From Wohlfahrtiimonas chitiniclastica DSM 18708 (GTDB lineage Bacteria > Pseudomonadota > Gammaproteobacteria > Cardiobacteriales > Wohlfahrtiimonadaceae), in NCBI RefSeq assembly GCF_000375345.1, contig NZ_AQXD01000002.1:90123-127376 (forward strand): 37,254 bases of DNA. The letters are read 5' to 3'. A program made the position numbers and the translations under genes. Positions 20,242 through 37,254 of this stretch are shown here, piece by piece (the stretch's first letter is position 1; the number at the start of each line of letters is the position of its first letter). Below the pieces are notes generated by a model. The model was not told the origin of the DNA, made no database searches, and saw only the letters and a list, made by a program, of their open reading frames with translations.

Positions 20242-20242
20242 C

Positions 20243-20917: not shown

Positions 20918-22125
20918 AGTCTACTTTATTGAAAGAGAGCAGCATTTATTTAGGCGGAGAATTGATCAGTAAAGCGCTGCCATTTTTATTGTTGCCCTAT
21001 TTAACGCGCGCCCTTGGCACAGAAGGATTTGGTGAGCTCTCTTATTACATGGTGTGGTTAGCACTCATCACTATTGGCATGAGCATGAGTCAAGAGGGTG
21101 CGATTGCTCGGTATTACTATTTTTATGGGCGTCGTGCACTGCCGATGGTGATGTGGGCGGGCTACTTAATGAGCGGGGCTGCGGCATTGGTACTGATGAT
21201 CATCGCCATCAGTTATGGCTCAGCCGTTGGCATTTATTTAACGCTGATCGCTTTATTGCAAACGGCATTGGGCGTGCAGCTTTCTTTGCGGCAATGCCAG
21301 CGACAAAGCGTGGCTTACATTACCATTCAAAGTCTATTTTCTCTCAGCAATGTTGCACTGACGCTGTTTTTCTTGCATGTGTGGCAACCGACAGCAACGC
21401 TCGTCAATGATCGTTTGTTGGCAATGTTATTGGCCAATGGTATTGCCTTTATGGTGGCGATCAGATGGGGCAGGCAAACATTAAACATGCGCATTCGTCC
21501 ATCCTTTCGGCAATTGCGCTTAGGTTTGCAATACATTTTGGCATTTGGTGTGCCGTTGATTTTTCATCATCTGAGTTTTTTTGTCAAAGGGCAGGTGGAT
21601 CGCTTTTTCATTTATCAACATTATGAGTCCTCTGAGCTTGGGGTTTATTCAGCAGGTGTACAACTTGCTGCGATTCTCCCCATTTTATTGATGGCCGTGA
21701 ATAAGGCATTATTGCCCCATTTTTATGGCAGCCTTAAACGTAATCAAGCTGCCGTGCGGGCAAAACTCCCTCGTTATTTTGTGATCAGTTTAGGCGGCGT
21801 ATGTTTACCAGCAATGATTGCTGCGGCACTGCCAAACAGTTTGTATCTATGGTTTTTAGGGGAGCATTATGGCGAGAGCCAATATTACACCGTATTTTAT
21901 CTTTTAGGATATGGATTGACGGTGCCTTACTTAATTGTGGTCAATTATCTATTTTATTTAGGTTTAAATAAACAGATCGCCGCCGGTAGCTTGATGAGCG
22001 CGGTGGTGTACTTAGGATTGCTGCTGATTTTTGGACAGTTTTCCATGCAATGGATTCCGTTTGCTTTGATTTTCAGTAACCTCTTTTTAATTGGGTATTT
22101 AGTGCGATGCGTAAAGAAACATTAG
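20914..22125 (+). CDS. wzx: Wzx-type oligosaccharide flippase (first copy)
   Basis: A 403-residue membrane protein of the polysaccharide flippase group (MOP superfamily). It has about 12 hydrophobic helices, the N-terminal ELISKALPFLLLPYLTRALGTEGFGELSY typical of Wzx (key residues L-P-Y-L-T-R-x-L-G near 27-36), and basic residues in the mid-section (VDRFFIYQHY). It should flip undecaprenol-linked oligosaccharides, here presumably a sialic-acid-containing or precursor glycan. It overlaps neuA by 4 bases and the sialyltransferase by 19 bases. A second flippase is encoded at 30908. Confidence 0.85.
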   Translation: MKSTLLKESSIYLGGELISKALPFLLLPYLTRALGTEGFGELSYYMVWLALITIGMSMSQEGAIARYYYFYGRRALPMVMWAGYLMSGAAALVLMIIAISYGSAVGIYLTLIALLQTALGVQLSLRQCQRQSVAYITIQSLFSLSNVALTLFFLHVWQPTATLVNDRLLAMLLANGIAFMVAIRWGRQTLNMRIRPSFRQLRLGLQYILAFGVPLIFHHLSFFVKGQVDRFFIYQHYESSELGVYSAGVQLAAILPILLMAVNKALLPHFYGSLKRNQAAVRAKLPRYFVISLGGVCLPAMIAAALPNSLYLWFLGEHYGESQYYTVFYLLGYGLTVPYLIVVNYLFYLGLNKQIAAGSLMSAVVYLGLLLIFGQFSMQWIPFALIFSNLFLIGYLVRCVKKH

Positions 22126-23063
22126 AAGCGGTGTTCATCTGTTTGACGCCATTACAGATGGTGATTGCAGAAGCCATCATTCGTAACAATAACATTCAGC
22201 GCTATGGCGTGCTTGGCATTTTTGCAGATGAATCGAAGCATAAATATTATTTTGAGCGTTTAACAAAGAATGCAATCTGGCATCACCATTATGTACAGCC
22301 CACAGGATTGCATGGATTGTCGGTGATTCGTGCCGTGCGAGCCTTTAGACAAAAGATGCTGCAAGCATTGTCAATGTATACGATTGATACGCTCTATTTG
22401 GCATCGATTAGCCATCCGTATCTACAAGCATTGGTGTACCGTCTGCCTTTTGAGGCTTTACATACGTTTGATGATGGTTTAGCAAACATCTATCCGCATT
22501 CCCATTATTACGCGGATGATTGTACGCAGGGCTATAAAAAAAGAGTGTGGCAATATTTAGTGGGCAAACATTCAACGCGCGAAATGCGGGCATTGAGTAA
22601 AAAGCATTGGACGATTTATGCAAATCATCCGAACATTATTGAGAAGATTGAGCCATTGACATTATTTCCCATTGAAATGGATGATCAGCCACGCACAGGG
22701 CAGATCAATATTTTGCTTGGGCAACCATTGTATGAAATGTATCCGCAATGTGATCAAGCCTTTATGGAACAGGTGATTGACGCCTTAAAGATTGAATACT
22801 ATTTTCCGCACCCGAGAGAAAACTATGTTTTGAATCATATGGTTAATGTGATGGATTCGCCGCTCATTTTTGAAGCGTACGTTGCAAATTTGTATCAAAC
22901 CCATGATGTGGCGGTGATCAATGTCTATTCATTTTTCAGCTCTGTGTTGGTCAATGTTGCCCATTATCCATTTGTCAAAACATATGCCATTGATGTTGAT
23001 GCGATTGATCGAGACATTTATGCAGTGCTCGATGCGGTTGGGGTTGAGCGGGTGAAAATATGA
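22107..23063 (+). CDS. GT52 family sialyltransferase (Lst-like)
   Basis: A 318-residue inverting glycosyltransferase resembling the GT52 family, whose best-known member is the Neisseria lipooligosaccharide alpha-2,3-sialyltransferase Lst. Matching blocks are the N-terminal CLTPLQMVIAEAI, TFDDGLANI (120-128), NILLGQPLYEM (201-211), YYFPHPRENY (231-240) and INVYSFFSSVL (271-281). It lacks the N-terminal membrane anchor of Lst. Directly following neuBCA, it is the likely acceptor-side enzyme, moving sialic acid from CMP-sialic acid to a galactose-like residue. Some GT52 members transfer other sugars, so donor is inferred. It overlaps both neighbours (19 and 4 bases). Confidence 0.82.
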   Translation: MRKETLEAVFICLTPLQMVIAEAIIRNNNIQRYGVLGIFADESKHKYYFERLTKNAIWHHHYVQPTGLHGLSVIRAVRAFRQKMLQALSMYTIDTLYLASISHPYLQALVYRLPFEALHTFDDGLANIYPHSHYYADDCTQGYKKRVWQYLVGKHSTREMRALSKKHWTIYANHPNIIEKIEPLTLFPIEMDDQPRTGQINILLGQPLYEMYPQCDQAFMEQVIDALKIEYYFPHPRENYVLNHMVNVMDSPLIFEAYVANLYQTHDVAVINVYSFFSSVLVNVAHYPFVKTYAIDVDAIDRDIYAVLDAVGVERVKI

Positions 23064-24022
23064 AAATATCGGTGATTGTGCCTGTCTATAAGGTCGAAAA
23101 ATATATTGGCAAATGCATACAAAGTTTATTAGATCAAACCCATACCAATTTTGAAGCTTTAATTGTGGATGATGGCAGTCCTGATCGATCGATTGACATT
23201 GCTAAAGAAATGGTGGGGAATGATCCGCGTTTTATTTTCTTAGAAAAAGAAAATGGTGGATTATCCAGTGCCCGAAATTATGGCTTAGATCACGCAACGG
23301 GTGATTATATTGCTTTTTTAGATTCAGATGATTGGTTAAAACCCACAACGTTTCAATTATGTTGCACAGCATTTCAGCCAGATGTAGACGTTGTTTTATT
23401 CGGCATAGAGGTTGTGAATGAGCAGGGAAATATTCAGCACCATATGATGCCAGATCTACAGGCATATTATGCTCAACAAGATATATTGTTGCTCAATGAA
23501 ACCATTAATTTCTCGGTATGGAATAAAATGTATCGACAGAGTGTTTGGCAGCATCGTAGATTTGTGACAGGCTTGATTTATGAAGACAAAGAGCTGATGG
23601 GCATCTTGTTATATCATAAGAAAATGGTGGTTTTAAAAACAGCGCTGTATTGTTATGTGCAGCGCACAGGATCGATCATGAATTCTTATCATCAAAATAC
23701 GCTGAACAGTTTGCAATATATTTATGGGCAATATCACAAGTTCTTAGTGAGAGAAGGATTGTTCGATCAATATAAGGATTATTATCAACGAGGTTATATT
23801 AAGTATTGTCTGTATAGTATGGCGTTACAAGTGTGTCATTATAAAGGTGATGCTCGTGTATATCGAGATGATATTCTCATGAAATTAGAGACAAGATTGA
23901 TTTCGATAAAAAATATCATTCATCATTACGGTTTGATGTCTAAATACACCATAGTGTCCGTTGCATTTTTACTCATGCCCAGAATATTTGCCTATGCTCT
24001 TAAGAAGTGGAGACATTTATAA
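23060..24022 (+). CDS. GT2 family glycosyltransferase
   Basis: A 320-residue GT-A enzyme. The N-terminal domain has ISVIVPVYKVEKYIGKCI, the nucleotide-binding VDDGSPD (about 36-42), ENGGLSSARNYGLDHA and the metal-binding FLDSDDW (about 91-97). The C-terminal part (about 230-320) ends in a hydrophobic stretch followed by basic residues, likely a membrane association. Sugar donor unknown. It overlaps the sialyltransferase by 4 bases and the next gene by 1 (TAATG). Confidence 0.88.
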   Translation: MKISVIVPVYKVEKYIGKCIQSLLDQTHTNFEALIVDDGSPDRSIDIAKEMVGNDPRFIFLEKENGGLSSARNYGLDHATGDYIAFLDSDDWLKPTTFQLCCTAFQPDVDVVLFGIEVVNEQGNIQHHMMPDLQAYYAQQDILLLNETINFSVWNKMYRQSVWQHRRFVTGLIYEDKELMGILLYHKKMVVLKTALYCYVQRTGSIMNSYHQNTLNSLQYIYGQYHKFLVREGLFDQYKDYYQRGYIKYCLYSMALQVCHYKGDARVYRDDILMKLETRLISIKNIIHHYGLMSKYTIVSVAFLLMPRIFAYALKKWRHL

Positions 24023-25134
24023 TGGGTCAGGGGATCAAAAAAATTGCACTCATTGCTGACTCAGAAGGATATGGCGGCTTAGCAAAATCTACTGAAAGAT
24101 TAACCACTGCACTAGTGGGGCAGGGGGAAAATGCTACAGCATTTTATATCCCCTCTGGGAAGTTTGGTTTTTTACAAAGCTATGTGAGGTTTTTTAGAAC
24201 ATTGCGGAAGTTTGATGTATTGATTTTAATGCATTTTCCTGCAATTTTAATGGGCATTTGCTTACGCATTATGAGATTGCAATCATGCAAAATTAATGTG
24301 ATCCATACGGATCTCGTAGGGTTTTATCAGCAGTGTTCATGGTTTAAAAAAGGTGTTTTACGATTACTGATCCATTGTATTCGAAATGAAAAAATGGTTT
24401 TTGTCTCTTATGAGGCAGCAGAGCGTGCACAAACCTATTTTAATTTAAGTGATGTGCTGACCATTTATAATTTAGTGGATGAGTTTATTGATCCTATGGA
24501 AAACAATGGGCAAGGACCAGTACAAAAGAAGCAGTTTTCATTTGGATGTATCGCACGCTTACATGAAAGTAAAAATATTGATGTTTTAATTAAGGTGTTT
24601 GCTGCTGTTGCAAAGCAATATCCGGCAGGATTTTTAACATTAAAAATTTATGGTGATGGTCCAGAGTATGCGCGATTGAAAGATTACGCTGCAGGATTTT
24701 TAGCACAGAATGTGATTCAATTTTATGGTTATGTTGATGATGTAAAAATCATCTATCCATCACTAGATGCAGTGGTGAGCTTATCGAGTATTGAAGGACT
24801 ACCATTAGTCATTTTAGAGGGGCTTGGGCATGGTAAACCCATTTTTCATACGGCGTGTCCTTGTGGGCCAATGGAGATTTTAAATCCTAATGTGAATCAT
24901 CGATGGCAAGAAAATCAATGGTGCATCAGAACACGTTATGGCTTTTTATTGCGTCCTGAACCACAGGTTCAACATTATGTTTGTGAGCTGTCTGAATATC
25001 AACATCATTATGTTACAGCATTGGTCAGTTTTATTGAATATTATTTGCATCATGCGATTGAGCAATATGATTTTTCACAATTTTCTCAAGAAAATATTGT
25101 CCAAAAATGGCAACAATTAATCAGAGGTGAATAG
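24022..25134 (+). CDS. GT4 family glycosyltransferase
   Basis: A 370-residue GT-B glycosyltransferase. It opens with KKIALIADSEGYGGLAKST; the C-terminal domain has FGCIARLHESKNIDVLI, LKIYGDGPE and the donor motif SSIEGLPLVILEGLGHGKPI (E-x7-E, about 257-276). The ATG at 24022 overlaps the previous stop (TAATG); an in-frame GTG at 24007 is less likely. Donor and acceptor unknown. GC is already somewhat lower than in the neu genes. Confidence 0.86.
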   Translation: MGQGIKKIALIADSEGYGGLAKSTERLTTALVGQGENATAFYIPSGKFGFLQSYVRFFRTLRKFDVLILMHFPAILMGICLRIMRLQSCKINVIHTDLVGFYQQCSWFKKGVLRLLIHCIRNEKMVFVSYEAAERAQTYFNLSDVLTIYNLVDEFIDPMENNGQGPVQKKQFSFGCIARLHESKNIDVLIKVFAAVAKQYPAGFLTLKIYGDGPEYARLKDYAAGFLAQNVIQFYGYVDDVKIIYPSLDAVVSLSSIEGLPLVILEGLGHGKPIFHTACPCGPMEILNPNVNHRWQENQWCIRTRYGFLLRPEPQVQHYVCELSEYQHHYVTALVSFIEYYLHHAIEQYDFSQFSQENIVQKWQQLIRGE

Positions 25135-25135
25135 T

Positions 25136-25864
25136 ATGTTCAGTATTATCATGCCCGTTCATAATGGTGAAGCCTTCATTAAAGCGGCGATTGACAGTGT
25201 ATTGGCGCAGTCTTATTACGAATATGAGCTCATCATTATCAATGATGCTTCAACTGATCAGAGTCTTGCAATGATTGATGCATATCGAGCTCAAGATGAG
25301 CGGATTGTTTTATTGCATTCTCAAGAAAGGGGAGTGGCTGCAGCCCGAAATGTTGGTATTGCTGCAGCAAAGTATCGCTACATTTGTTTTTTAGATTGTG
25401 ATGATGTGTGGTTGCCACATAAGCTTGAGCAGTCTTTCGCTTACTTTGCACAGGGTCATACGATGCTCTATGCCTTTTACACGCGTTGTAATGCAAAAAA
25501 TGAGGTTCTCAATCTCGTTAAAGCCCCTTTAGTCATCGATTATGAACATTTATTAAAGGGCAATTGTATTGGCAATTTAACTGGCGCTTATGACAGTACA
25601 GTGCTTGGTAAGTTTTATCAGGAAAATATTCGCCATGAAGATTACAGAATGTGGCTCAGTATTGTTAAAAAAGCTGGGTATGGCATCTGTATTCCTGAAA
25701 GCTTGGCTTATTACCGTGTGAACGCGGGATCACTTTCGAGTAATAAATTTAAAAGTTTATTGTGGACATGGCGCATGTATCGTAAGCACTTAGGGTATGG
25801 TCTGTGGCAATCTTTATATTATTGGTGTCATGCTGTGGTTAGAATGTTGAATAAACGCTTCTAA
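25136..25864 (+). CDS. GT2 family glycosyltransferase
   Basis: A 242-residue GT-A enzyme with FSIIMPVHNGEAFIKAAI, INDASTDQS (about 35-43), GVAAARNVGIA and the metal-binding CFLDCDDVW (about 83-91). AGAGGTGA lies before the ATG at 25136; an in-frame GTG at 25127 is the alternative. A late DYRMWLSIVKKAGYG motif is the usual ED-Y/W catalytic region (here HEDYRMW). It is the last gene of the first polysaccharide module; a 111-base gap follows. Confidence 0.86.
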   Translation: MFSIIMPVHNGEAFIKAAIDSVLAQSYYEYELIIINDASTDQSLAMIDAYRAQDERIVLLHSQERGVAAARNVGIAAAKYRYICFLDCDDVWLPHKLEQSFAYFAQGHTMLYAFYTRCNAKNEVLNLVKAPLVIDYEHLLKGNCIGNLTGAYDSTVLGKFYQENIRHEDYRMWLSIVKKAGYGICIPESLAYYRVNAGSLSSNKFKSLLWTWRMYRKHLGYGLWQSLYYWCHAVVRMLNKRF

Positions 25865-25939
25865 ATGAGAGAAAATTTAGCGAGGTTAATTTCAAAAATG
25901 GTTTATACTAGTAACAAGTAATAGTAAAAAATTTATATT

Positions 25940-25958
25940 ATCAATAAAGAATATTGAT
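25940..25958. repeat. short inverted repeat in module gap
   Basis: ATCAATA (25940-25946) and TATTGAT (25952-25958) form a 7-base inverted repeat in the AT-rich gap (25865-25975) between the two polysaccharide modules. The gap also has AT-rich -10-like hexamers (for example TATACT in 25900-25910). It may hold an internal promoter or a regulator site, but I see no convincing -35. No U-run follows, so it is not a clear terminator. Confidence 0.35.
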
Positions 25959-25975
25959 TAATTAGCAAATACAGT

Positions 25976-27271
25976 GTGGGGTCTGTTTTGGTAGAGAGTC
26001 AGCAGCTTAGGCATTCTCGTTGGTATGAGAGAGTCATTTTTAACTTTTGGTTTCAGATGATACTAGGGTTTATTCTGGTAGGTGTTTTGCCATCCATTAT
26101 TATTTGGCCTAAATTATTGCATTTAGACCCTATATACTTTTCAGATACCCGTACTTATACAACAGTAGCTAATATTTGTGCTTTTTTCTTGTCTTTTATG
26201 CTGTATAAAAAGATTCAAAAATTTCCAGATGCACGATCCATTATCTATTTATTGCCATCTGTTACACTCTCATGGGGTGCAATTATGGGTGGTATTTTTT
26301 TGTTAAAAGTGGAGTATTCTCGTACGGTTTTATTAGTGGGATATTTGATCGCCAATACATGGACAGTCCTAGGTTATTATTTAGGTAAGCGTTATTATTG
26401 TTTAAAATTAGCGGTTGTGCCCTATGGAAATTATCAAGAGCTCGAGCAATTTAAATCCATCGATACCCGCATTTTAATTGAGCCCACGCTTGGCAATACG
26501 CGCTTTGATGCGGTTGTGGCAGATTTACGTAGTGATATGCCAAACGAGTGGCAAACCTTTTTGGCCAATTGTGCACTGGCAAACATCCCTGTGTACCACA
26601 GTCGGCAGATGGTGGAACAATTGACAGGGCGCGTTAAGATCACGCATTTGTCTGAAAATATTTTTGGTGCGCTCTATACACGATCCACGTATGGCATGGT
26701 CAAACGCTGTGCAGAGATTGTATTTGTGCTCCTGTTGTTACCCATTTGGCTGCCATTGATGTTGATTTTTGGTCTCTTGGTGAAACTTGAGAGTCAAGGG
26801 CCAATGTTTTTTACTCAAGAACGTGTAGGGCTTGGGGATCAAGATTTTACTGTGTATAAGCTTCGCAGCATGTGCCAAGATTCCGAAAAACAAGGGGCTC
26901 AGTTTGCCACACAAGGGGATGCACGTGTGACGCGTATAGGGAAATTCATCCGTAAAACGCGCATTGATGAGATTCCACAGTTTATTAATATTCTCAAGGG
27001 CGACATGAGCCTCATTGGCCCACGGCCGGAACAGCGCGTTTTTGTGGAGCAATTTAAGCAAGAGATTCCTTTTTATTCATATCGTCATGTGGTGCGCCCG
27101 GGGATTTCGGGGTGGGCTCAGGTGACGCAAGGTTATGCGGCAAACAGCGATGAAACAAGCATCAAACTAGAATATGATCTCTATTATATTAAGCATTTCT
27201 CTTTTTGGCTCGATGTGCTCATTGTGTTTAAAACCATTAAAACAATGCTGACAGGGTTTGGGGCAAGGTAA
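25976..27271 (+). CDS. polyprenyl-phosphate sugar-1-phosphate transferase (WbaP-like)
   Basis: Initiating enzyme that transfers a sugar-1-phosphate from a UDP-sugar to undecaprenyl phosphate, starting the repeat unit. The 431-residue protein has four N-terminal membrane helices (about 25-145), a soluble central domain and one more helix (about 245-265). The catalytic bacterial sugar transferase domain follows: FTQERVGLGDQDFTVYKLRSM, KTRIDEIPQF, KGDMSLIGPRPEQ (about 340-352) and RPGISGWAQV (about 377-386). Domain order fits the WbaP group (galactose or glucose phosphate), but the sugar cannot be fixed. No good ATG exists: GTG at 25976 or TTG at 25988 are the candidates, with no strong ribosome site. 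Confidence 0.85.
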   Translation: MGSVLVESQQLRHSRWYERVIFNFWFQMILGFILVGVLPSIIIWPKLLHLDPIYFSDTRTYTTVANICAFFLSFMLYKKIQKFPDARSIIYLLPSVTLSWGAIMGGIFLLKVEYSRTVLLVGYLIANTWTVLGYYLGKRYYCLKLAVVPYGNYQELEQFKSIDTRILIEPTLGNTRFDAVVADLRSDMPNEWQTFLANCALANIPVYHSRQMVEQLTGRVKITHLSENIFGALYTRSTYGMVKRCAEIVFVLLLLPIWLPLMLIFGLLVKLESQGPMFFTQERVGLGDQDFTVYKLRSMCQDSEKQGAQFATQGDARVTRIGKFIRKTRIDEIPQFINILKGDMSLIGPRPEQRVFVEQFKQEIPFYSYRHVVRPGISGWAQVTQGYAANSDETSIKLEYDLYYIKHFSFWLDVLIVFKTIKTMLTGFGAR

Positions 27272-27283
27272 CTAAGGACAATC

Positions 27284-28342
27284 ATGAAAATTCTAATCAC
27301 AGGCGGCGCAGGCTTTATTGGTTCTGCTGTTGTGCGCCACATCATTGAGCATACACAAGATCATGTGTGTAATATTGATAAATTAACGTATGCAGGTAAT
27401 TTAGAGTCGCTACGTTCAATAGAAAATAATGAACGTTATCAATTTAAGCAGATCGATATTTGTGATCGCAGTGCGTTAAACAGTGTATTTGAAGCATTTC
27501 AGCCAGATTGTGTGATGCATTTAGCCGCAGAATCTCATGTCGATCGGTCAATAGATGGTCCTGCGGCATTTATTGAAACCAACATTGTGGGCACATACAC
27601 ATTATTAGAAGCGGCTCGTCAATATTGGCTCACGTTAGATGATGCTAAAAAAAGCGCTTTTAGATTTCATCACATCTCAACAGATGAAGTTTATGGTGAT
27701 TTAGCAGGGACTAATGATCTATTTACTGAAACAACAGCCTATGCACCAAGTTCTCCTTATTCAGCGAGTAAAGCGAGTTCTGATCACTTAGTGCGTGCAT
27801 GGGAAAGAACATATGGTTTACCAACCATTGTGACCAATTGCTCGAATAATTATGGCCCCTATCATTTCCCTGAAAAATTAATTCCATTAATGATCATCAA
27901 TGCATTAGATGGTAAACCTTTACCCATTTATGGTGATGGTCAGCAAATTCGTGACTGGCTGTATGTAGAGGATCATGCTCGTGCATTATATAAAGTGGTC
28001 ACAGAGGGGAAAGTGGCACAAACCTATAACATTGGTGGCCACAATGAAAAAGCCAATATTGATGTGGTTAAAACGATTTGTAATATTTTAGATGAATTAA
28101 AACCTCGCCAGGATGGCAGTCAATATGCTGATTCAATCACGTTTGTAAAGGATCGTCCAGGACATGATTTACGTTATGCCATTGATGCGAGTAAAATTCA
28201 GCGAGAATTGAATTGGGTGCCTAAAGAGACATTTGAAAGTGGCATTCGTAAAACGGTCGAATGGTATCTCAATCATTTAGATTGGTGTCGTAATGTCCAG
28301 GATGGTAGCTATCAAAGAGAACGATTAGGAGCAGATGTATGA
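27284..28342 (+). CDS. rmlB: dTDP-glucose 4,6-dehydratase
   Basis: Converts dTDP-glucose to dTDP-4-keto-6-deoxyglucose. The 352-residue short-chain dehydrogenase-type protein has [11 protein letters not shown] (7-17), [19 protein letters not shown] with the catalytic Thr-Asp-Glu, and YSASK (about 161-165). AAGGA precedes the ATG. It overlaps rmlA by 4 bases. As rmlC and rmlD are missing, the product most probably feeds WecE downstream, not dTDP-rhamnose. Confidence 0.95.
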
Positions 28343-29214
28343 TGAAACAAACAAAAGGCATTATTCTAGCAGGTGGCTCAGGTACGCGCTTGTACCCGAT
28401 CACTAAGGGCGTGTCAAAGCAACTTTTGCCGATTTATGATAAACCGATGATCTATTATCCACTGTCTGTGTTGATGCTTGCGGGTATTCGTGAAGTATTG
28501 GTGATCAGTACACCAGAAGATATGGAAGGTTATCAACGTTTGCTCGATGATGGTTCACAGTTTGGCATTAACATTAGCTATGCAATTCAGCCAAGTCCGG
28601 ATGGTTTAGCACAGGCTTTTTTAATTGGTGAGGAATTCATTGGTGACAGCAATGTTTGCTTAGTGCTTGGGGACAATATTTTTTATGGCCAAGGTTTTAC
28701 ACCCATGCTGAAAGAAGCAATGAACCGACAAACAGGTGCGACAGTTTTTGGTTATCAGGTGAAAGATCCTGAGCGCTTTGGTGTGGTTGAGTTTAATGAG
28801 CACAAACAAGCCATTTCCATTGAAGAAAAACCCACTAAACCACGATCGAACTTTGCAGTGACTGGTTTATATTTCTATGATAATGATGTGGTTAAAATGG
28901 CTAAATGTGTCGAGCCCTCACCACGTGGAGAATTAGAAATAACGAGCATTAACCAAGCTTACTTGCAACGTGGTGATTTGCATGTTGAATTAATGGGGCG
29001 CGGCTTTGCATGGTTAGATACTGGTACACACGAGAGTTTATTAGAGGCGGGTATGTTTGTCGAGACCATCGAAAAACGCCAAGGTTATAAAATCGCATGT
29101 TTAGAAGAGATTGCCTATAACAATGGTTGGCTCACTAAAGAGCAATTATTAATAATTGGGCAAAGCATGAGTAAAAATGCTTATGGACAATACTTATTGA
29201 GCTTGCAAGGGTAG
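28339..29214 (+). CDS. rmlA: glucose-1-phosphate thymidylyltransferase
   Basis: Makes dTDP-glucose from glucose 1-phosphate and dTTP. The 291-residue protein has [21 protein letters not shown] (about 7-27; glycine-rich loop and Arg), [16 protein letters not shown] and VLGDNIFYG (about 109-117) with the metal-binding Asp. AGGAG lies 7 bases before the ATG at 28339; a second ATG at 28342 is possible. Composition is still at core-like GC (25 of 60 bases in a sample at 28441-28500), in contrast to the gene that follows. Confidence 0.95.
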
Positions 29215-29218
29215 ATAT

Positions 29219-29785
29219 ATGGCATATTTAACACAAATACAATTAGAAAATATGGGATTTAAATCTATTGGTACAAATGTATTAATCAGTGATAAAGCTA
29301 GTATTTATAACGCTGATCAAATAGAAATAGGAAATAATTCTCGCATTGATGATTTCTGTGTTGTATCAGGTAAAGTTATTATAGGTAACAATGTACATCT
29401 TGCTCCATTTTGTTTAATTGCTGGCGGCAAAGAAGGAATTTTATTTGAAGATTTTTCAGGGGCAGCATATCAAGTCCAAATATTTACACAATCAGATGAT
29501 TATAGTGGAAAAACATTAACGAATCCTACGATTCCTTTAGAGTATAAGTTAGAGATACGAAAAGCCGTTTATATTAAAAAGCATGTCATTATAGGTGCGG
29601 GTTCGATTATATTGCCTGGTATAGTTTTGGAAACAGGCTGCTCAGTTGGAGCTATGTCTTTGGTGAGAAAAAGTACAGAACCATGGGGGGTCTATGTTGG
29701 GAATCCTGCAAAGAGATTAAAAGATAGAAAGAAAGATTTATTAATTTTAGAAGAACAGTATTTGGCAGAACTAAAAAATGATTAA
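29219..29785 (+). CDS. left-handed beta-helix (hexapeptide) acyltransferase, probable amino-sugar N-acetyltransferase
   Basis: A 188-residue acyltransferase with hexapeptide repeats: IEIGNNSRIDDFCVV, KVIIGNNVHLAPFCLIAGG (about 53-71), IKKHVIIGAGSIILPGIVL (about 120-138) and the closing YVGNPAKRLKDR. The group includes acyltransferases acting on sugars and nucleotide-amino sugars. It overlaps wecE by 8 bases, so I infer that it acetylates the amino group that WecE installs, giving dTDP-Fuc4NAc; O-acetylation of the repeat unit is the alternative. GC falls sharply here (15 of 60 bases at 29221-29280). AAGGG precedes the ATG. Confidence 0.75.
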   Translation: MAYLTQIQLENMGFKSIGTNVLISDKASIYNADQIEIGNNSRIDDFCVVSGKVIIGNNVHLAPFCLIAGGKEGILFEDFSGAAYQVQIFTQSDDYSGKTLTNPTIPLEYKLEIRKAVYIKKHVIIGAGSIILPGIVLETGCSVGAMSLVRKSTEPWGVYVGNPAKRLKDRKKDLLILEEQYLAELKND

Positions 29786-30914
29786 ATTTAATATTCCACC
29801 TGTTATCGGTACAGAAAGTACTTATTTGAATGAATCTATACAAAATCAACACTTATGTGGTGATGGGCCTTATACAAAAAAATGTCAGAAGTGGTTTGAA
29901 GATAATTTTAAATCTCAAAAAGTTTTATTAACACCATCGTGTACACATGCTTTAGAAATGGCAGCGATCTTGTTGGATATTCGAGACGGTGATGAAGTTA
30001 TTATGCCGAGTTATACCTTTGTGAGTACAGCAAATGCTTTTGTATTACGAGGGGCTAAAATTGTATTTGTCGATATCCGCCCTGATACAATGAACATTGA
30101 TGAAAAAAAAATTGAAGCTGCAATTACTGATAGAACGAAGGCTATAGTTCCTGTGCATTATGCTGGTGTGGCTTGTGAAATGGATACAATTATGTCATTA
30201 GCTGATCAGTATAACTTATTTGTAGTGGAAGATGCAGCTCAAGGAGTTATGTCTAACTATAAAGGACGTGCTTTGGGAGCAATAGGTCATTTAGGTGCAT
30301 ATAGTTTCCATGAAACTAAAAACTATACCAGTGGTGGTGAGGGTGGTGCATTATTAATTAATGATGCTAGATTTTTGGAACGTGCAGAAATTATTCGTGA
30401 GAAAGGTACGAATAGAAGTCAGTTTTTTAGAGGAATGGTTGATAAATATAGTTGGGTTGATATAGGGAGTAGTTTTTTACCAAGTGAATTGCAAGCAGCA
30501 TATTTATTTGCACAATTAGAGGCAGCAGATACAATTAACCAAAATAGGTTGTCTGTATGGCAGTTATATTATAATTCTCTAGAATGTTTGCAAGAGCAAG
30601 GAAAATTAGAGCTTCCAAATCTTTCTGATGGTATTAAACATAATGCCCATATGTTTTATATTAAAACTAAAAATTTAGAAGAACGAACTCAATTAATGGA
30701 CTTTTTGAAAAATAATAATATTCAAACGGCATTTCATTATATTCCACTACATTCAGCACAAGCAGGTTATAAGTATTCAAACTTTCACAGTGTAGATGAA
30801 TATACTACAAAAGAAAGTGAGAGATTATTGAGGTTACCCATGTGGTATGGATTATCACATGAAGATATTGATTTGATTTGTTCAAATATCCTAGCGTTTT
30901 ATAATAAATGTTGA
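29778..30914 (+). CDS. wecE: dTDP-4-amino-4,6-dideoxygalactose transaminase WecE
   Basis: PLP enzyme of the DegT/DnrJ/EryC1/StrS family that aminates dTDP-4-keto-6-deoxyglucose with glutamate to dTDP-4-amino-4,6-dideoxygalactose (Fuc4N). The 378-residue protein reads like E. coli WecE throughout: VLLTPSCTHALEMAA (49-63), EVIMPSYTFVSTANAFVLRG (73-92), EDAAQGV (151-157), HETKNYTSGGEGG with PLP lysine K181, and REKGTNRSQFFRGMVDKYSW. Its closeness to WecE favours Fuc4N over the Qui4N and Fuc3N aminotransferases. Overlaps both neighbours by 8 and 7 bases. Confidence 0.9.
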   Translation: MIKFNIPPVIGTESTYLNESIQNQHLCGDGPYTKKCQKWFEDNFKSQKVLLTPSCTHALEMAAILLDIRDGDEVIMPSYTFVSTANAFVLRGAKIVFVDIRPDTMNIDEKKIEAAITDRTKAIVPVHYAGVACEMDTIMSLADQYNLFVVEDAAQGVMSNYKGRALGAIGHLGAYSFHETKNYTSGGEGGALLINDARFLERAEIIREKGTNRSQFFRGMVDKYSWVDIGSSFLPSELQAAYLFAQLEAADTINQNRLSVWQLYYNSLECLQEQGKLELPNLSDGIKHNAHMFYIKTKNLEERTQLMDFLKNNNIQTAFHYIPLHSAQAGYKYSNFHSVDEYTTKESERLLRLPMWYGLSHEDIDLICSNILAFYNKC

Positions 30915-32323
30915 AAAAATTTTTAATCTATGCAATAGGGCCTATTACTAATGGGATTTTTGCATTAATAACATTGCCAGTATTAACTTGGTATTTCTCT
31001 CAAGAAGATATTGGTAAATTTAGTCTATTACAAACACTTCTTAGTTTGGGTGTATTATTGTTTAGTCTAGATTTACATCAGGCTTATGTAAGACATTATT
31101 ATGATATTCAAGATAAGGGTAGATTGTTTAGACAGTCTTTTTATCCAAGTTTTATTTTTTCTATATTAATTATATGTGTTATATGGGGTATAGATTCACT
31201 ATTGTCTTATCAATTGATAGGATGGTTTTTCCATCTGCCCGATAACGGTCTGTATCTGTACACTTTAATCAGTTTAACAATTATTTGTTTAGTATTTATT
31301 AATTTTTTATCACACCAACTCAGAATGAGCGAGAAAGTAATCGCCTATTCAGTCACGCAAGCACTTTCAAAAGGAATGTTATTAATATTTGTGTTGTTTG
31401 GTATTTCTTTATTCGAAGTTTTAGATTTCAAAATATTGGTATTGTTGAATACAGTTGTTACCATTCTTCTTGTATTAATTTTTTTGTTGATTAGTAGAAA
31501 AAATTTGTATACCAATTTTATTGGAGATATTTCAATAAAAGAATTGAAAATTTTATTTAAATTTAGTTTGCCATTGATTCTAGGTAGCGCAGCATACTGG
31601 GGATTGTTATCACTAGATCGTTTGTTTTTGAATTACTATTCAACTTTATCTGAAATAGCGTTATATTCCATATCAGTTACTGTAGCTTCTAGTTTATTTC
31701 TTGTAGTTAGTATTTTCTCTACGATATGGCATCCAACACTGTATAAATGGATTCATAATGGTGTAGATAATAAAAAAATATTTTGTGTAATTTCTAATAC
31801 AGCATGTCTAGCATTTATTTTGTGGTCATTATTTGGGATGTTATCTTGGGTAGTTCCTTTAATTCTTCCGATAGGTTATGAAGGAATTGATTTATTAATT
31901 GTATCTGCTATTGCACTGCCTTTATTTTATTTGATGTCAGAAACAACTATGGTAGGTATTTCAATTACTAAGAAAACCATTTATATAACTATATCATCTG
32001 TATGTGCATTATTTATTAATAGTATTTTAAATTTTTATTGGATACCAAAGTATGGTGCGATAGGGGCAACTCTTGCTTCAGCGGCTTCTTTTTTTCTGTT
32101 ATTTATAATTCGAACAGAGGCTAGTTCTTTTTTATGGAATCGTTTACCAAGAATTCGTATATATATATTAAGCGGTATATATTTATCATATACGGTTTTT
32201 TTGTTATTTAATGAAATTGATATCTATATCAGATGTATAGTGTGGATGATATTATTGATATTTTCAATTTTTGTTTTTAGAGAAGATCTACTAAAAGTTA
32301 AAGAGGTTTTTAATAGATGTTAA
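30908..32323 (+). CDS. wzx: Wzx-type polysaccharide flippase (second copy)
   Basis: A 471-residue membrane protein with about 12-14 hydrophobic helices and the Wzx-type N-terminus LKKFLIYAIGPITNGIFALITLPVLT. Expected to flip the Fuc4NAc-containing repeat unit for the adjacent Wzy. It is very AT-rich (18 of 60 bases G or C at 31081-31140) and differs from the first flippase in length and sequence, so the two are not a recent duplication. Overlaps wecE by 7 bases and the following gene by 7. Confidence 0.84.
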   Translation: MLKKFLIYAIGPITNGIFALITLPVLTWYFSQEDIGKFSLLQTLLSLGVLLFSLDLHQAYVRHYYDIQDKGRLFRQSFYPSFIFSILIICVIWGIDSLLSYQLIGWFFHLPDNGLYLYTLISLTIICLVFINFLSHQLRMSEKVIAYSVTQALSKGMLLIFVLFGISLFEVLDFKILVLLNTVVTILLVLIFLLISRKNLYTNFIGDISIKELKILFKFSLPLILGSAAYWGLLSLDRLFLNYYSTLSEIALYSISVTVASSLFLVVSIFSTIWHPTLYKWIHNGVDNKKIFCVISNTACLAFILWSLFGMLSWVVPLILPIGYEGIDLLIVSAIALPLFYLMSETTMVGISITKKTIYITISSVCALFINSILNFYWIPKYGAIGATLASAASFFLLFIIRTEASSFLWNRLPRIRIYILSGIYLSYTVFLLFNEIDIYIRCIVWMILLIFSIFVFREDLLKVKEVFNRC

Positions 32324-33555
32324 TTATTTATTCTGCTTTGGTCTTAGGAGGTATTGAGACTTTTTTTGTACGTCTTTGTGAGCAGAGATACTTAGAGGGT
32401 AAGAATACAAAAGTGCTTTTGTTATTTCCTAAATCTAAATCTGACCCTTTTTTAATAGCAAGATTAGAAAAAATAGCGGATATTTACTATCTTTCAGATA
32501 TAACTTATTTTTGTAATATTTTTTTTTCTTATTTTCCATTATTGGCATTATTTAGGGCGAAAAAAGTAAAAGAGCTTTTTTCTGATGTATCACAAATACA
32601 TGTTACATCCGGTAGACATGCAGTATTAGCTAACCATTTACAGCATATGATGGGGATGGACTTGTCAATTACAATAGGTGTCTATCACTCCAAAGAGTTT
32701 GCATGGAAATATAAAAATTGTGAAAATTTTTATTTTGAGAAAACAAATCGTCGTTTTATATTAGATTTTCTCCCAAAGAAAAATATTTTCTTTTTCTCTG
32801 ATAGTACGCGTCAATATTATACAGAGTTGTGCAGTAAAAATTTCACTTCATCTCAAATATTTAGATTAGGTGTTATTAATCATGATATTACTATGTCTAG
32901 TAAAATATATAACAAACAAAAGATATTAAAAATTGTATCAATTGGGCGTTTAGTTAACTTTAAACAGTATAATTTGTGGATGTTGGATATTATATATGCT
33001 TTAAAATCTGACAATATTCAAATATTGTATGATATATATGGGACAGGACCTTTATATGATATTATGAAGTGCAGGATTAATGAGTTAAATTTGCAAAATA
33101 ATGTTTTCTTAAAAGGAAATTTACCTTATAACGATTTTAACTCGACTGTATTAGGGTATGATATTTTTGTTGGTAGTGGTACTGCAATTGTTCAAGCAAG
33201 TGCTTTAGGTGTTGTATGTATTGCTGGTATTGAGTCAGAGAAAAATCCAGTGAGTTATGGTTTCTTTCATGAATGTTATAAATATGAGTACCATAGAAAT
33301 AACCTTACTTTGCCTAAAGTTCAAGTATTTGATTTAATTCATGATTTTCTGAGTTGGAATAATAGTGAGAAAATATTAATATCTAAAAAACATGTTCTGG
33401 CGAGTAAAGATTTTGGAATAGAACAATGTAGTTTAGAATTTTCTAGAGATTATGATATAACAGGTTATTATCAAATATCTAAATTTAAATATGTATTAAG
33501 TGAGTTAGTATTTTTTTTATACTCTAAAATGAAAAAATTTAATAGGTATAACTAG
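32317..33555 (+). CDS. divergent GT4-like glycosyltransferase
   Basis: A 412-residue GT-B-like protein, with LVLGGIETFFVRLCEQ near the start (compare GG-x-E-x-F-x in GT4 enzymes), then IVSIGRLVNFKQYNLWMLD (about 208-226), YDIYGTGPLYDIM (about 241-253) and DIFVGSGTAIVQASALGVV (about 284-302). In this last block, the usual second Glu of the E-x7-E donor motif is Gln and the first is not evident. It may still be active, since some relatives keep the VGSGTA form. The C-terminal 100 residues are unusual and rich in Lys, Tyr and Phe. Donor unknown. Shares the low GC of the cassette; overlaps Wzy by 1 base (TAGTG). Confidence 0.7.
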   Translation: MLIIYSALVLGGIETFFVRLCEQRYLEGKNTKVLLLFPKSKSDPFLIARLEKIADIYYLSDITYFCNIFFSYFPLLALFRAKKVKELFSDVSQIHVTSGRHAVLANHLQHMMGMDLSITIGVYHSKEFAWKYKNCENFYFEKTNRRFILDFLPKKNIFFFSDSTRQYYTELCSKNFTSSQIFRLGVINHDITMSSKIYNKQKILKIVSIGRLVNFKQYNLWMLDIIYALKSDNIQILYDIYGTGPLYDIMKCRINELNLQNNVFLKGNLPYNDFNSTVLGYDIFVGSGTAIVQASALGVVCIAGIESEKNPVSYGFFHECYKYEYHRNNLTLPKVQVFDLIHDFLSWNNSEKILISKKHVLASKDFGIEQCSLEFSRDYDITGYYQISKFKYVLSELVFFLYSKMKKFNRYN

Positions 33556-34592
33556 TGAGTAAGCATATTAGTACGTTTTTTTGTGGTATAACGATTATAC
33601 TGATAGCGCTTTTAGTAGGACTTAGAGGTGATACGCCAGATACTCAGGTATATTGGTATGTTTATCAAAATATACAATTATATAATTTATCTAATCCTTT
33701 GTTATTCTATAGTCAGACTGGTATGGAAATTGCCTTTGGTTGGTATAGCTCTTTTATGCATCTTCTAGGCGCCAATAATATTTTTTTCTTTTCTTTTTAT
33801 TCCTTTCTTATTTTATTAACAATTGTTAAATTATCTAGGTATATTCATGTATCTTTATTTTATGTGATGCTATCTTACTTATCAAGCAGTTATTTTTTTA
33901 TTCAACAGTTCATGCAGATAAGGCAAGGATTAGCTATATCTGTAACAATGTTAATTTGCATTGCAATATTACATAGAAGGTTTACTCATTGTAAATTGCT
34001 TTATCTATTCTTGATGCTATGTATTTTAATTCATCAAACCTCTATAGTTTTGATTGTTATATTTATGTTGTTTATTTTCTATGAAAAATTTACTGTTTTA
34101 AAATCAAGTGTGTTAATTAATATACTGCTTATTATTTTTATTATATTTATGATAAAATATATAGTTATGCCTCAGCTTATAATTTTAAGCTCCAGGGTGG
34201 CTAGTTATAGCGAAATTAGTGAGTATTCTTTTGATCGCTCACTTTTATCATTACCTAATATTCGTGCGATGTTGATATTGATATTTATTTATTTATTAAC
34301 AAATAGAAAATTATATTCAGTTTTGACTTATAGATTTTTATTTTTTTGTATAGTATTAGCTGTTATATTTCGGATAGGGTTTTCAGAGTTTGCTATTTTA
34401 AATGGTCGAATATCTATTGTGGCCTCATTTGCTGAGGTTTTTATCATACCGATGGTATTGTTATATCGGTTTAGCTTTCATTCTAGACTAATATTAATAA
34501 TTATTTGGTTTGTAATGCAGGGATATATTTCTCTTTTTATACAATCTGCTATATTAATAGATACATATTTTAAGCCATTGGTGAGTATTTGA
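33555..34592 (+). CDS. wzy: EpsG-like O-antigen/capsule polymerase Wzy
   Basis: A 345-residue protein with about nine to ten hydrophobic helices and the EpsG-family pattern VGLRGDTPDTQVYWYVYQ in the first periplasmic loop (about 21-38), followed by FQQFMQIRQGLAISV-like (FIQQFMQIRQGLA, about 115-127), the conserved Arg-Gln near the third helix. I infer that it polymerises undecaprenol-linked repeats in the periplasm. It starts with GTG in TAGTG overlapping the previous stop. Very AT-rich (for example 34501-34560). Wzy proteins are poorly conserved, so the call rests on topology, motif and position. Confidence 0.75.
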   Translation: MSKHISTFFCGITIILIALLVGLRGDTPDTQVYWYVYQNIQLYNLSNPLLFYSQTGMEIAFGWYSSFMHLLGANNIFFFSFYSFLILLTIVKLSRYIHVSLFYVMLSYLSSSYFFIQQFMQIRQGLAISVTMLICIAILHRRFTHCKLLYLFLMLCILIHQTSIVLIVIFMLFIFYEKFTVLKSSVLINILLIIFIIFMIKYIVMPQLIILSSRVASYSEISEYSFDRSLLSLPNIRAMLILIFIYLLTNRKLYSVLTYRFLFFCIVLAVIFRIGFSEFAILNGRISIVASFAEVFIIPMVLLYRFSFHSRLILIIIWFVMQGYISLFIQSAILIDTYFKPLVSI

Positions 34593-35434: not shown

Positions 35435-36307
35435 ATGATCAAAAAAGCCATCCTCCCTGTTGCCGGTTTAGGCACCCGATTTTTACCCGCAAGCAAAGCC
35501 ATTCCTAAAGAGATGGTGACGGTTGTGGATCGCCCTGTGATTGAATACGTGGTCAAAGAAGCTGTCAAAGCGGGCATCACAGAAATCATTTTGGTGACGC
35601 ATTCCTCAAAAGCGTCGATTGAAAACTATTTTGATCGCAACTTTGAGCTTGAAACCACATTGACTCAGAAAAAGAAATTTGATCTCCTCGAAGAAATTAC
35701 TAACATTGTGCCGAGCAATGTGAGCATTGTTGCGGTGCGCCAGCCTGAGCCCCTTGGCCTTGGGCATGCGGTTTTGTGTGCAAAAAGTGTGATTGGCGAT
35801 GATGATTTTGTGGTGTTATTGCCAGATGTGCTCATTAAAAACAGTGAGGCAATGCATGATTTAACTTTGATGATCGAGCGCTTTGATGCCACGAATCATG
35901 CTCAAATTATGGTGGAAGCGGTGCCAAAACATTTAGTCGATCAATATGGCATTGTGGATGTTGAGCAGACACCCGAAGAGGGGCAAAGCATTGTGATGCG
36001 TGGAATTGTGGAAAAACCCGCCATTGAGGCTGCACCCTCTAACTTATCCGTAGTGGGGCGCTATGTGTTGCCAGCACGCATCATGGCGCTGTTAGAACAA
36101 ACACCAAAAGGCGCAGGCAATGAGATTCAGCTCACGGATGCGATTGCAATGCTACAAAAAGAAGCGCCAATTGAGGCGTACCGCATGCAAGGGCAAACCT
36201 TTGATTGCGGTAGTAAATTGGGGTATCTCAAGGCAGTATTGCATTATGGGGTGGATCATCCGACCCTTGGGGCAGATTTTAAAGCAATGATTGACGAGTT
36301 AAAATAA
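35435..36307 (+). CDS. galU: UTP-glucose-1-phosphate uridylyltransferase
   Basis: Makes UDP-glucose from UTP and glucose 1-phosphate. The 290-residue protein has ILPVAGLGTRFLPASKAIPKEM (split as VAGLGTRFLP at 8-17 and KAIPKEM at 20-26), then RQPEPLGLGHAVLCA (about 109-123) and VLLPDVLI (about 130-137). The ATG at 35435 gives the start MIKKAILPV seen in shorter GalU homologues; ATG at 35429 would add two residues. The reading frame upstream is open to 35348 but overlaps the glycosyltransferase and is rejected. Supplies UDP-glucose for the locus; galU then a dehydrogenase gene is a common capsule-end layout. The next gene overlaps by 1 base (TAATG). Confidence 0.95.
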   Translation: MIKKAILPVAGLGTRFLPASKAIPKEMVTVVDRPVIEYVVKEAVKAGITEIILVTHSSKASIENYFDRNFELETTLTQKKKFDLLEEITNIVPSNVSIVAVRQPEPLGLGHAVLCAKSVIGDDDFVVLLPDVLIKNSEAMHDLTLMIERFDATNHAQIMVEAVPKHLVDQYGIVDVEQTPEEGQSIVMRGIVEKPAIEAAPSNLSVVGRYVLPARIMALLEQTPKGAGNEIQLTDAIAMLQKEAPIEAYRMQGQTFDCGSKLGYLKAVLHYGVDHPTLGADFKAMIDELK

Positions 36308-37254
36308 TGCACATTACGATGATTGGGCAAACGTTGCAGGCAAATGTCTTAACTGAACTGTTCAGTGCTGTGGGTAATTGTGTGCATCATGAGCCGACTT
36401 TAAAAGGCATCGCGATTGATCAGCTGCCTACGCACATGGATGTGTTGTGTTTATGTGTGCCATCTCATCAATTTGAGCAGGCGTGTGAATTTTTACAGAA
36501 ATTTCAAAATCATACTGCACCAAAGCTCATGATCAATGGTGCCACTTTTGGTTTACATGGCACTGCGCAATTGGCAAAAATGTATGATCAAGCGCCATGG
36601 TGTTATCTGCCCGATACCATTCAAGAGGGCAATGCCGTGGACAGCTTTGTGGATGCTAAACAGATGATTGTGGGCTGTGATGATGAGCATGCCCGCCCAT
36701 TGATGCAAGAGCTATTGCGTCCGTTTTTCCCGCGCCCGCAGCAAATTTTATGGATGCCATTGCTTGATGCGGAGCTCACCAAGCTCTCCATTTCTGGCAT
36801 GCTTGCAACGCGCATCAGCTATATGAATGATTTGGCCAACATTGCTGAGAAGTTGGGCGTGGACATTTTAAACGTTCAGCAAGGCATGGCCGCAGATACG
36901 CGCATTGGCGGCAGTTATCTATCTGCAGGTGTTGGCTTTGGTGGCGCGAATTTTTCCCATGACATCACCATGCTCGCTTCAGAAGTGGCACAAAATGGTG
37001 GAAAAAGTCGTTTACTTCAGCAAGTGTGGGACATCAATGAGGATCAAAAAGAGATCCTATTTCGTAAGCTTTGGCACCATTTTGCCACGGATTTACAGGG
37101 CAAAGTGATCGCCATTTGGGGGGCGGCATTTAAAGAGAACACTGCAAGTATTCAGCATTCGCCCATTCATAAGATGCTGAGCGCACTCTGGGCACAAGGC
37201 GCGATTGTTAAGCTGCATGATCCGAAAGCATTACCTAAAATTGCTGCGCAATAT
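36307..37254 (+). CDS. UDP-glucose dehydrogenase-like protein lacking catalytic motifs (partial, runs off right end)
   Basis: An open frame from ATG 36307 to the last base (316 codons, no stop). The middle and C-terminal parts clearly resemble UDP-glucose/GDP-mannose dehydrogenases: QEGNAVDSF (106-114), DAELTKLSISGMLATRISYMND (AELTK 155-159, then MLATRISYMND), GVDILNVQQGM, and WGAAFKENT (271-279). Key sites are altered. The N-terminus MHITMIGQTLQAN has no GxGxxG. About 45 residues of the Rossmann domain are missing compared with typical members. The catalytic-Cys block GYGGSCFPKD reads GFGGANFSHD (210-219; Asn215 in place of Cys), the KYAANA Asn is Ser163, and NTDDMR is NTASIQ. Lys159 and Asp219 are kept. 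The frame is intact with normal codon use, so it is not an evident pseudogene. Confidence 0.85.
   Translation, partial: MHITMIGQTLQANVLTELFSAVGNCVHHEPTLKGIAIDQLPTHMDVLCLCVPSHQFEQACEFLQKFQNHTAPKLMINGATFGLHGTAQLAKMYDQAPWCYLPDTIQEGNAVDSFVDAKQMIVGCDDEHARPLMQELLRPFFPRPQQILWMPLLDAELTKLSISGMLATRISYMNDLANIAEKLGVDILNVQQGMAADTRIGGSYLSAGVGFGGANFSHDITMLASEVAQNGGKSRLLQQVWDINEDQKEILFRKLWHHFATDLQGKVIAIWGAAFKENTASIQHSPIHKMLSALWAQGAIVKLHDPKALPKIAAQY

Follow-up and report, generated by a model that had tools for sequence, protein, structure and literature searches.

The gene that lies directly downstream of galU in a 37,254-nucleotide stretch of the Wohlfahrtiimonas chitiniclastica DSM 18708 genome (hereafter, the window) is, as far as its sequence allows us to judge, the visible part of a conserved pseudoenzyme family related to the UDP-glucose 6-dehydrogenases (UGDs), a family that also includes the gene known as ugd in Acinetobacter capsule loci. 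We designate it here ugdP (UGD-family pseudoenzyme gene). On balance, with odds slightly better than even, we favor the idea that UgdP is a pseudoenzyme that binds UDP-sugars and serves to sense or regulate the supply of UDP-glucose, probably through GalU.

The ugdP gene and its genomic context

Within the window, ugdP extends over positions 36307..37254 of the forward strand, comprising the first 316 of its 389 codons, with the remainder located past the window. It is preceded on the same strand by galU (35435..36307; 290 codons plus stop; PF00483), which encodes a UDP-glucose pyrophosphorylase and ends on the A of the ugdP ATG, within a TAATG overlap at 36305..36309 (forward strand). The initial annotation had described an uninterrupted gene coupled to galU in this way, and both the shared A and a frame open from the ATG at 36307 to the end of the window were confirmed. 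The full gene was obtained from the source genome (1.99 Mb, completeness 100), where it consists of 389 codons plus the stop (G000:C2:126429-127598; L005:2430-3599) and encodes a protein of 389 aa. A single N is found in codon 317, at the first base past the window (L005:3378; G000:C2:127377). The product of the window galU shares 76-94% identity with its counterparts in four further Wohlfahrtiimonadaceae genomes that were queried, and 78-79% with those of two Acinetobacter genomes.

Upstream of galU, the stretch 18985..34592 (forward strand), nine of whose ORFs were scanned, contains capsule-type polysaccharide genes, whose products include a UDP-GlcNAc 2-epimerase, two flippase-like proteins, glycosyltransferases, an initiating sugar transferase, an aminotransferase and an EpsG-type polymerase, in agreement with the polysaccharide locus proposed at first. 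The presence of two flippase-like proteins (Polysacc_synt; 20914-22122 and 30908-32320) in one such locus is a separate observation.

A canonical ugd was looked for downstream, and none was found; the genes located there are instead gpi, then galE, then pgm on the opposite strand. A profile search of the source genome with PF00984 detected no protein besides UgdP. The best match to PF03721 (28.3 bits with its neighbours; cut-off 27) was a 276-aa frame without PF00984 and unlike a UGD, as were three further matches at 20-22 bits. The suggestion that the window protein might control a true dehydrogenase therefore found no support in this genome, where PF00984 picks out UgdP alone, and for the same reason we discarded a role of UgdP as companion to a canonical UGD within one cell.

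UgdP descends from the UGD superfamily

The window protein scored above the Pfam cut-offs for PF00984 (86.8 bits) and PF03720 (89.8 bits), and below that of the NAD domain PF03721 (12.5 bits, 23.4 for a same-genus relative; cut-off 27). In NCBIfam, it reached 210.7 bits versus a cut-off of 700 for the TuaD equivalog, and fell barely below the cut-off of the NDP-sugDHase subfamily (189.0 versus 189.8), which was exceeded by the relative in locus L009 (203.9). Classification as an active UDP-glucose 6-dehydrogenase was rejected on these NCBIfam scores and on the absence of the catalytic Cys and of GxGxxG/PF03721.

The solved chains nearest to the window protein by sequence were those of BceC, in an alignment that starts at residue 101. 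An AlphaFold model of the protein from Wohlfahrtiimonas sp. G9077, 86% identical to that of the window, was built from 32 rows (mean pLDDT 78, pTM 0.58); its N-terminal part was confident and its central domain weak, and the geometry of the pocket could not be read from it. Both Foldseek (best TM-score 0.56) and VIA-align ranked UGDs first for this model, the latter with Z scores of 27.5 for 3gg2 (rmsd 8.1, 337 aligned residues) and 26.5 for BceC. The PF00984 and PF03720 domains, the fold and the residues of the UDP-sugar site together place the window protein in the UGD superfamily by descent. With active UGDs of the TuaD/BceC type (2y0c-e, 3gg2) it shares the three-domain fold (model residues 1-390), both domains and the UDP-sugar site residues, whereas UgdP lacks their Cys, their GxGxxG and seven residues of their VGTPxDxDG loop.

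Distribution and single origin of the Cys-less family

A protein-guided scan of named genomes yielded 366 relatives, and the best 80 were kept: 76 Acinetobacter loci, Wohlfahrtiimonas sp. G9077, Wohlfahrtiimonas larvae, an Ignatzschineria MAG and a genome labelled Advenella alkanexedens. This last entry (LAM0050, L104) carries an Acinetobacter-like galU-ugdP-gpi block under what we take to be a betaproteobacterial name, and is probably misnamed or mixed. Similarly, in a contig titled Acinetobacter baumannii ACIN00150 (L082) the start of ugdP resembles that of A. guillouiae (L060) and not that of the OXA-51-positive genome described below, so that it perhaps belongs to another species.

The G9077 protein is 100% identical to that of the same-genus genome G003, and the latter shares 86% identity with the window protein; the window genome falls in one genus group with G003 and G001, the carriers of the G9077 and W. 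larvae genes. Five of the six genomes of this genus contain ugdP, the sixth being 81% complete. Across the family, 15 of 18 genomes gave a match and 14 have ugdP, in one case split over two contigs, the remaining match (G013) being distant (24% identity). With the A. pittii protein as query, 169 of 175 Acinetobacter genomes gave a match at E 1e-20 or below, and among the matches listed the whole query was covered with no internal stop. The PF00984 proteins of the six genomes without a match were of the Gna/WecC type (five) or the E. coli type (one).

Six weaker matches correspond to a second, divergent Cys-less Acinetobacter type (GAS[VI]NA; GFGG[GS][NS][LF]TRD), whose loci are flanked by galU and gpi on two sides (L244, L245, L218, L224, L226, L229, L230, L231). 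Two second-type loci that were read further have pgm and lepA-like genes near, apparently outside a capsule locus. A PF00984 search of 25 genomes (24 Acinetobacter and the one labelled Advenella) showed that the other proteins read carry GYGGYCLPKD or GGHC, with an intact Cys, and that some Acinetobacter genomes have an E. coli-type UGD alongside UgdP.

Among 369 sampled gammaproteobacterial genomes, with a cut at E 1e-70, at least seven further full-length Cys-less proteins were found at 36-43% identity (G479, G472, G309, G426, G504, G260 and G399), together with a divergent fragment with stops (G572) and three other full-length matches read that are active UGDs (L232, L233, L235). Genome G504 harbors, besides its Cys-less UgdP, another match of the sort that active UGDs produce (G504:C7:323357-324637 and G504:C7:476669-477541), and could help to separate the two functions.

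Trees were limited to rows with good start sites. In a tree with eight outgroup dehydrogenases, 28 Cys-less proteins formed one clade with 100/100 support, and the same 28-protein clade was recovered at 100/100 when the outgroups were omitted. The root and the internal branching order are infirm, because rooting the tree did not bring the active UGDs together in one clade, several end branches were long and two long rows were joined. The Cys-less proteins are thus one old gammaproteobacterial family of single origin.

Residues lost and retained in UgdP

To compare residues, the 28 Cys-less proteins were aligned with 11 active UGDs, and human UGDH numbering was mapped by motif; every residue named below is present in 11/11 active UGDs. 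The family signatures recognized initially in the window protein (EGNAVDSF, AELTK...ATRISYMND and AFKENT) are present. Its dinucleotide loop GxGYVG is replaced by GQTLQA (residues 7-12; 36325..36342, this and the following on the forward strand), with Thr at Gly2 of GxGxxG, Ala at Gly3 and Leu at the Tyr. PDTIQEG takes the place of PEFLKEG (residues 102-108; 36610..36630), so that Glu161 becomes Asp103 and Glu165 is kept. In the stretch K-L-S-I-S (residues 159-163; 36781..36795), Lys220 is kept as Lys159 and Asn224 becomes Ser163. Arg260, which contacts the sugar from across the dimer, is kept as Arg199 (36901..36903), and GFGGANFSHD replaces GYGGSCFPKD (residues 210-219; 36934..36963), with the catalytic Cys changed to Asn215 and Asp280 kept as Asp219. 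Finally, the segment of residues 276-283 (37132..37155) begins with K276, the conserved Lys339, and contains ASIQ in place of DDMR.

Several of these features had been noted in the initial annotation, and the comparison with the 11 active UGDs bore out the absence of GxGxxG, Asn215 for Cys, Ser217-His218 for Pro-Lys, the exchange of T-D-D-M-R for T-A-S-I-Q, and the conservation of Lys159 and Asp219. The protein is also shorter before the active site as claimed, by 51 residues (position 215 versus 266 in 11/11 active UGDs) rather than the estimated 45 or so. The changes at Asn224 and Glu161 and the loss of seven residues of the VGTPxDxDG loop add to that list. Base-call errors hiding standard motifs were ruled out, because the same motifs recur in other genomes: they are identical in another genome of the genus at 86% protein identity, and Asn is found at the Cys position in 80/80 loci.

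Throughout the family, the catalytic Cys is present in 0/28 members (Asn 23, His 2, Ser 2, Tyr 1) versus 11/11 active UGDs. Gly2 of GxGxxG is retained in 0/28, Gly3 in 1/28 and the Tyr of GxGYVG in 0/28, and seven residues of VGTPxDxDG, the loop on the NAD side, are missing in 28/28. Asn224 (5/28), Glu161 (1/28, with Asp in 27) and the Arg of DDMR (2/28) are also mostly lost, and Thr131 is kept in only 21/28. On the UDP-sugar side, the equivalents of Lys220, Arg260, Lys339 and Arg442 are found in 28/28 each, with Lys339 and Arg442 being, we assume, UDP contacts in human UGDH; Glu165 is kept in 27/28 and Asp280 in 26/28. In the best 80 of the 366 relatives, which overlap partly with the 28 aligned proteins, the Cys position was Asn, Asn224 was Ser and Asp280 was Asp in 80/80 loci. 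The Gly-loop pattern was read by script in 77 of these 80, the other three (L078, L081, L088) having GKTLYA. Motifs were read in these 80 loci and in further individual loci, part of the 169 Acinetobacter matches among them. The Asn224 position is Asn in five divergent members (L238-L242), Ile in two (L236, L237) and Ser in the other 21, so that the active site appears to have decayed in steps.

A study of human UGDH describes Arg260 as binding the glucose held by the neighboring subunit, proposes that residues 260-280 sense whether a site is occupied, and ascribes to Lys220 the stabilization of the transition state; it also gives roles for Cys276, Asp280 and Thr131, and reports that Lys339Ala converts the hexamer into a dimer (PMC3184952). 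With the NAD site and the thiol lost, UgdP would bind no NAD in the usual manner and form no thiohemiacetal, so that the two-step oxidation should not run and UDP-glucuronic acid should not be made. The proposal of a putative pseudoenzyme made in the initial annotation is supported, as the Cys and the seven NAD-loop residues are missing in all 28 members of a single clade whose dN/dS is far below 1. The survival of substrate binding, hinted at by the same annotation, receives residue-level support from the four invariant UDP-sugar-site equivalents; these include the Arg that reaches the partner, which suggests that the most likely state of UgdP is a dimer with UDP-glucose or another UDP-sugar bound, this binding probably serving as a signal.

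The same conservation could also be read as the mark of a new enzyme, whose old UGD pocket now converts a UDP-sugar in another way, independently of NAD. The equivalents of Lys220 (28/28) and Asp280 (26/28), the Asn found at the Cys position in all of the best 80 loci, and a TFGL[HY]GT loop conserved in the main clade with few exceptions would be consistent with such a reaction. However, both the Cys position (N23, H2, S2, Y1 of 28) and the loop vary across the wider family, so that there is no single new catalytic residue common to it, and we regard this explanation as unlikely.

Linkage of ugdP to galU and gpi

Using the window galU and gpi as queries against the fetched flanks, we found one or both at 55/55 ugdP loci (galU 49, gpi 52) versus 2/28 active-UGD loci, a further difference between the two groups. 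These counts are to be read with the composition of both sets in mind, since the 55 loci (30 of the Acinetobacter main type, 6 of the second type, 12 from Wohlfahrtiimonadaceae and 7 divergent) are not independent, and at 25 of the 28 active-UGD loci the flanks span no more than about 1.5 kb, beyond which looser linkage could lie. With the same limit on flank length, the low count at active loci led us to reject inheritance of the linkage from active UGDs. The gene order is galU-gpi-ugdP in six of the divergent genomes and galU-ugdP in one, and in two Acinetobacter genomes galU and ugdP are separated by 115-117 bases. The linkage also holds where no capsule genes were seen nearby, as on the recA side in L239, the pssA/leuA side in L241 and the lepA side in L244 and L245 (names from ORF reading).

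Full-length GalU was detected in 14/14 genomes chosen for having UgdP (E 2e-83 or better), whereas the same search, run with a positive control, recovered it in 0/10 UgdP-less genomes, where the best match was 1.6e-12 and the matches read were RmlA-like or one 55-residue piece. Two of these ten genomes are about 80% complete and six have no completeness figure, five of the latter holding the capsule-locus gene gna; the joint absence of GalU and UgdP could equally reflect block loss of one operon or assembly gaps. At least, none of the ten has retained GalU while losing UgdP. The 55-residue piece (G005:C124:6137-6301; L266) is 49% identical to the end of GalU, lies beside rml-like genes and is perhaps a remnant.

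These data bear on the suggestion that the window protein controls GalU. The association itself stands, in the form of adjacency and of joint presence and absence, and control is the regulatory step that we infer from it. Speaking against such control, many bacteria run GalU without UgdP, and gpi or the gap of 115-117 bases stands between galU and ugdP in the genomes named above. Given such constant neighbors, the likely target is the pathway that leads from glucose-6-phosphate to UDP-glucose, with GalU as the first candidate: a catalytically dead UGD relative, retained beside the genes of UDP-glucose supply, would most likely contact GalU and set the output of UDP-glucose, much as proposed for GalF. 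In Escherichia coli, GalF was proposed to interact with GalU and to regulate UDP-glucose in earlier work cited in the available part of PMC4643126. Like GalF, UgdP would be a relative turned partner of the UDP-glucose pathway, its contact with GalU being suggested by linkage and joint absence. GalF differs in being a relative of GalU with weak activity, according to the same part of that source (PMC4643126), whereas UgdP derives from an enzyme that uses UDP-glucose, and may by analogy represent a parallel solution drawn from another enzyme.

Location in the capsule locus of both the window genome and the OXA-51-positive genome G049 would fit another function, in which UgdP serves the capsule machinery as a scaffold or target, for example as a substrate of the Wzc tyrosine kinase, with the UDP site kept only for folding. 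In a phage-resistant A. baumannii mutant, ugd carries an insertion at position 1137 (PMC10904470), which hints at a capsule role. Nevertheless, this insertion lies upstream of gpi and may be polar on it, and ugdP also has galU and gpi as neighbors at loci with no capsule genes seen close by, which leads us to consider such a function improbable.

The ugd gene of Acinetobacter baumannii capsule loci

Genome G049 carries a bla gene above the OXA-51 cut-off (647 versus 600 bits), which we take to be the usual marker of A. baumannii. Its K locus has the order galU - ugdP - gpi - galE - pgm - lldP-like, and its UgdP contains GTTLHA and GFGGENFSHD. The K-locus ugd of A. baumannii is therefore the same protein in this genome, the one OXA-51-positive genome read; its published label is UDP-Glc dehydrogenase, and its sequence is without the required residues. 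In the passages available, ugd is one of eight genes always present in the K locus, with a second homology group accounting for 2.1% (PMC9676051), and is labelled as a UDP-Glc dehydrogenase that makes UDP-GlcA (PMC9676051, PMC3628348). A 2025 capsule paper still treated GlcA as a sugar that a locus carrying the common genes galU, ugd, gpi, gne1 and pgm could supply (PMC12111749). The passages seen of three A. baumannii Tn-seq papers contain no mention of ugdP (PMC10249906, PMC7481262 and PMC12604733, the last with a UDP-glucose/GDP-mannose dehydrogenase, ABUW_3830 / A1S_0052). Our search of the open-access literature found no paper joining UDP-glucose dehydrogenase with pseudoenzyme. We take ABUW_3830 / A1S_0052 to be gna, and Kasimova 2018, on Ugd2, may already comment on the universal ugd.

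The proteins Ugd2-Ugd5 of A. baumannii also belong to the UGD superfamily and are present in some K loci. Unlike UgdP, they have been assigned to GlcA, which the available text of PMC9676051 ascribes to ugd2-ugd5 in 24 loci. This assignment is one of the points against UgdP being a still-active dehydrogenase with unusual chemistry, an explanation that would agree with the modelled UGD fold (Z 27.5 for 3gg2, 26.5 for BceC) and with the listing as UDP-Glc dehydrogenase in the same source (PMC9676051). The loss of the Cys and of NAD-site residues in 28/28 members and the retention of ugdP in a source genome with no other PF00984 protein are the others, and we consider such activity very improbable.

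The preferred reading of UgdP as a sensor can be extended to a more specific form, which we put forward tentatively and at somewhat less than even odds: that UgdP is a UDP-sugar sensor that evolved once from a UGD in Gammaproteobacteria and works allosterically in partnership with GalU, possibly also with Gpi, and that every K-locus ugd of A. baumannii encodes this sensor and makes no UDP-glucuronic acid. The genome read already puts in question the annotation of this gene as the UDP-GlcA maker. The sensor, if real, would explain why GlcA-containing capsules need the additional ugd2-ugd5. Should UgdP be a pseudoenzyme, predictions of capsule composition would change, a control point of UDP-glucose supply would become testable in A. 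baylyi ADP1, a harmless strain used in the laboratory, and the family would provide an example, extending over all its members, of an enzyme turned regulator within a pathway that it once drained.

Purifying selection on ugdP

Pairwise dN/dS values were calculated by the Nei-Gojobori method; dS exceeded 1 in many pairs, which makes the figures rough, yet they are far from 1. Overall, ugdP gave values of 0.02-0.11, similar to those of galU and gpi. The medians for ugdP, galU and gpi were 0.038, 0.049 and 0.034 in the A. baumannii group (15 pairs) and 0.047, 0.035 and 0.050 in the A. haemolyticus group (15 pairs). The corresponding values were 0.073, 0.053 and 0.055 in the A. ursingii group (3 pairs), 0.022, 0.055 and 0.052 between A. 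soli and A. baylyi (1 pair), and 0.107, 0.078 and 0.074 between the window genome and Wohlfahrtiimonas sp. G9077. Consequently, ugdP is under purifying selection and is not a pseudogene. A lone decaying gene was likewise discarded, given its presence in 5/6 genomes of the genus, the matches in 169/175 Acinetobacter genomes and the low dN/dS. Gene decay would agree with the relaxed constraint on the former NAD domain and with the one divergent copy with stops (G572), but has practically no probability in view of an omega of 0.02-0.11 and of the 169/175 Acinetobacter genomes with a match, the listed ones covering the whole query with no internal stop.

Within the protein, the former NAD domain had the highest omega in 3/4 pairs (those with all figures), reaching 0.154 versus 0.088 and 0.078 for the other parts in the Wohlfahrtiimonas pair, and the central part was the most identical domain in 4/4 pairs.
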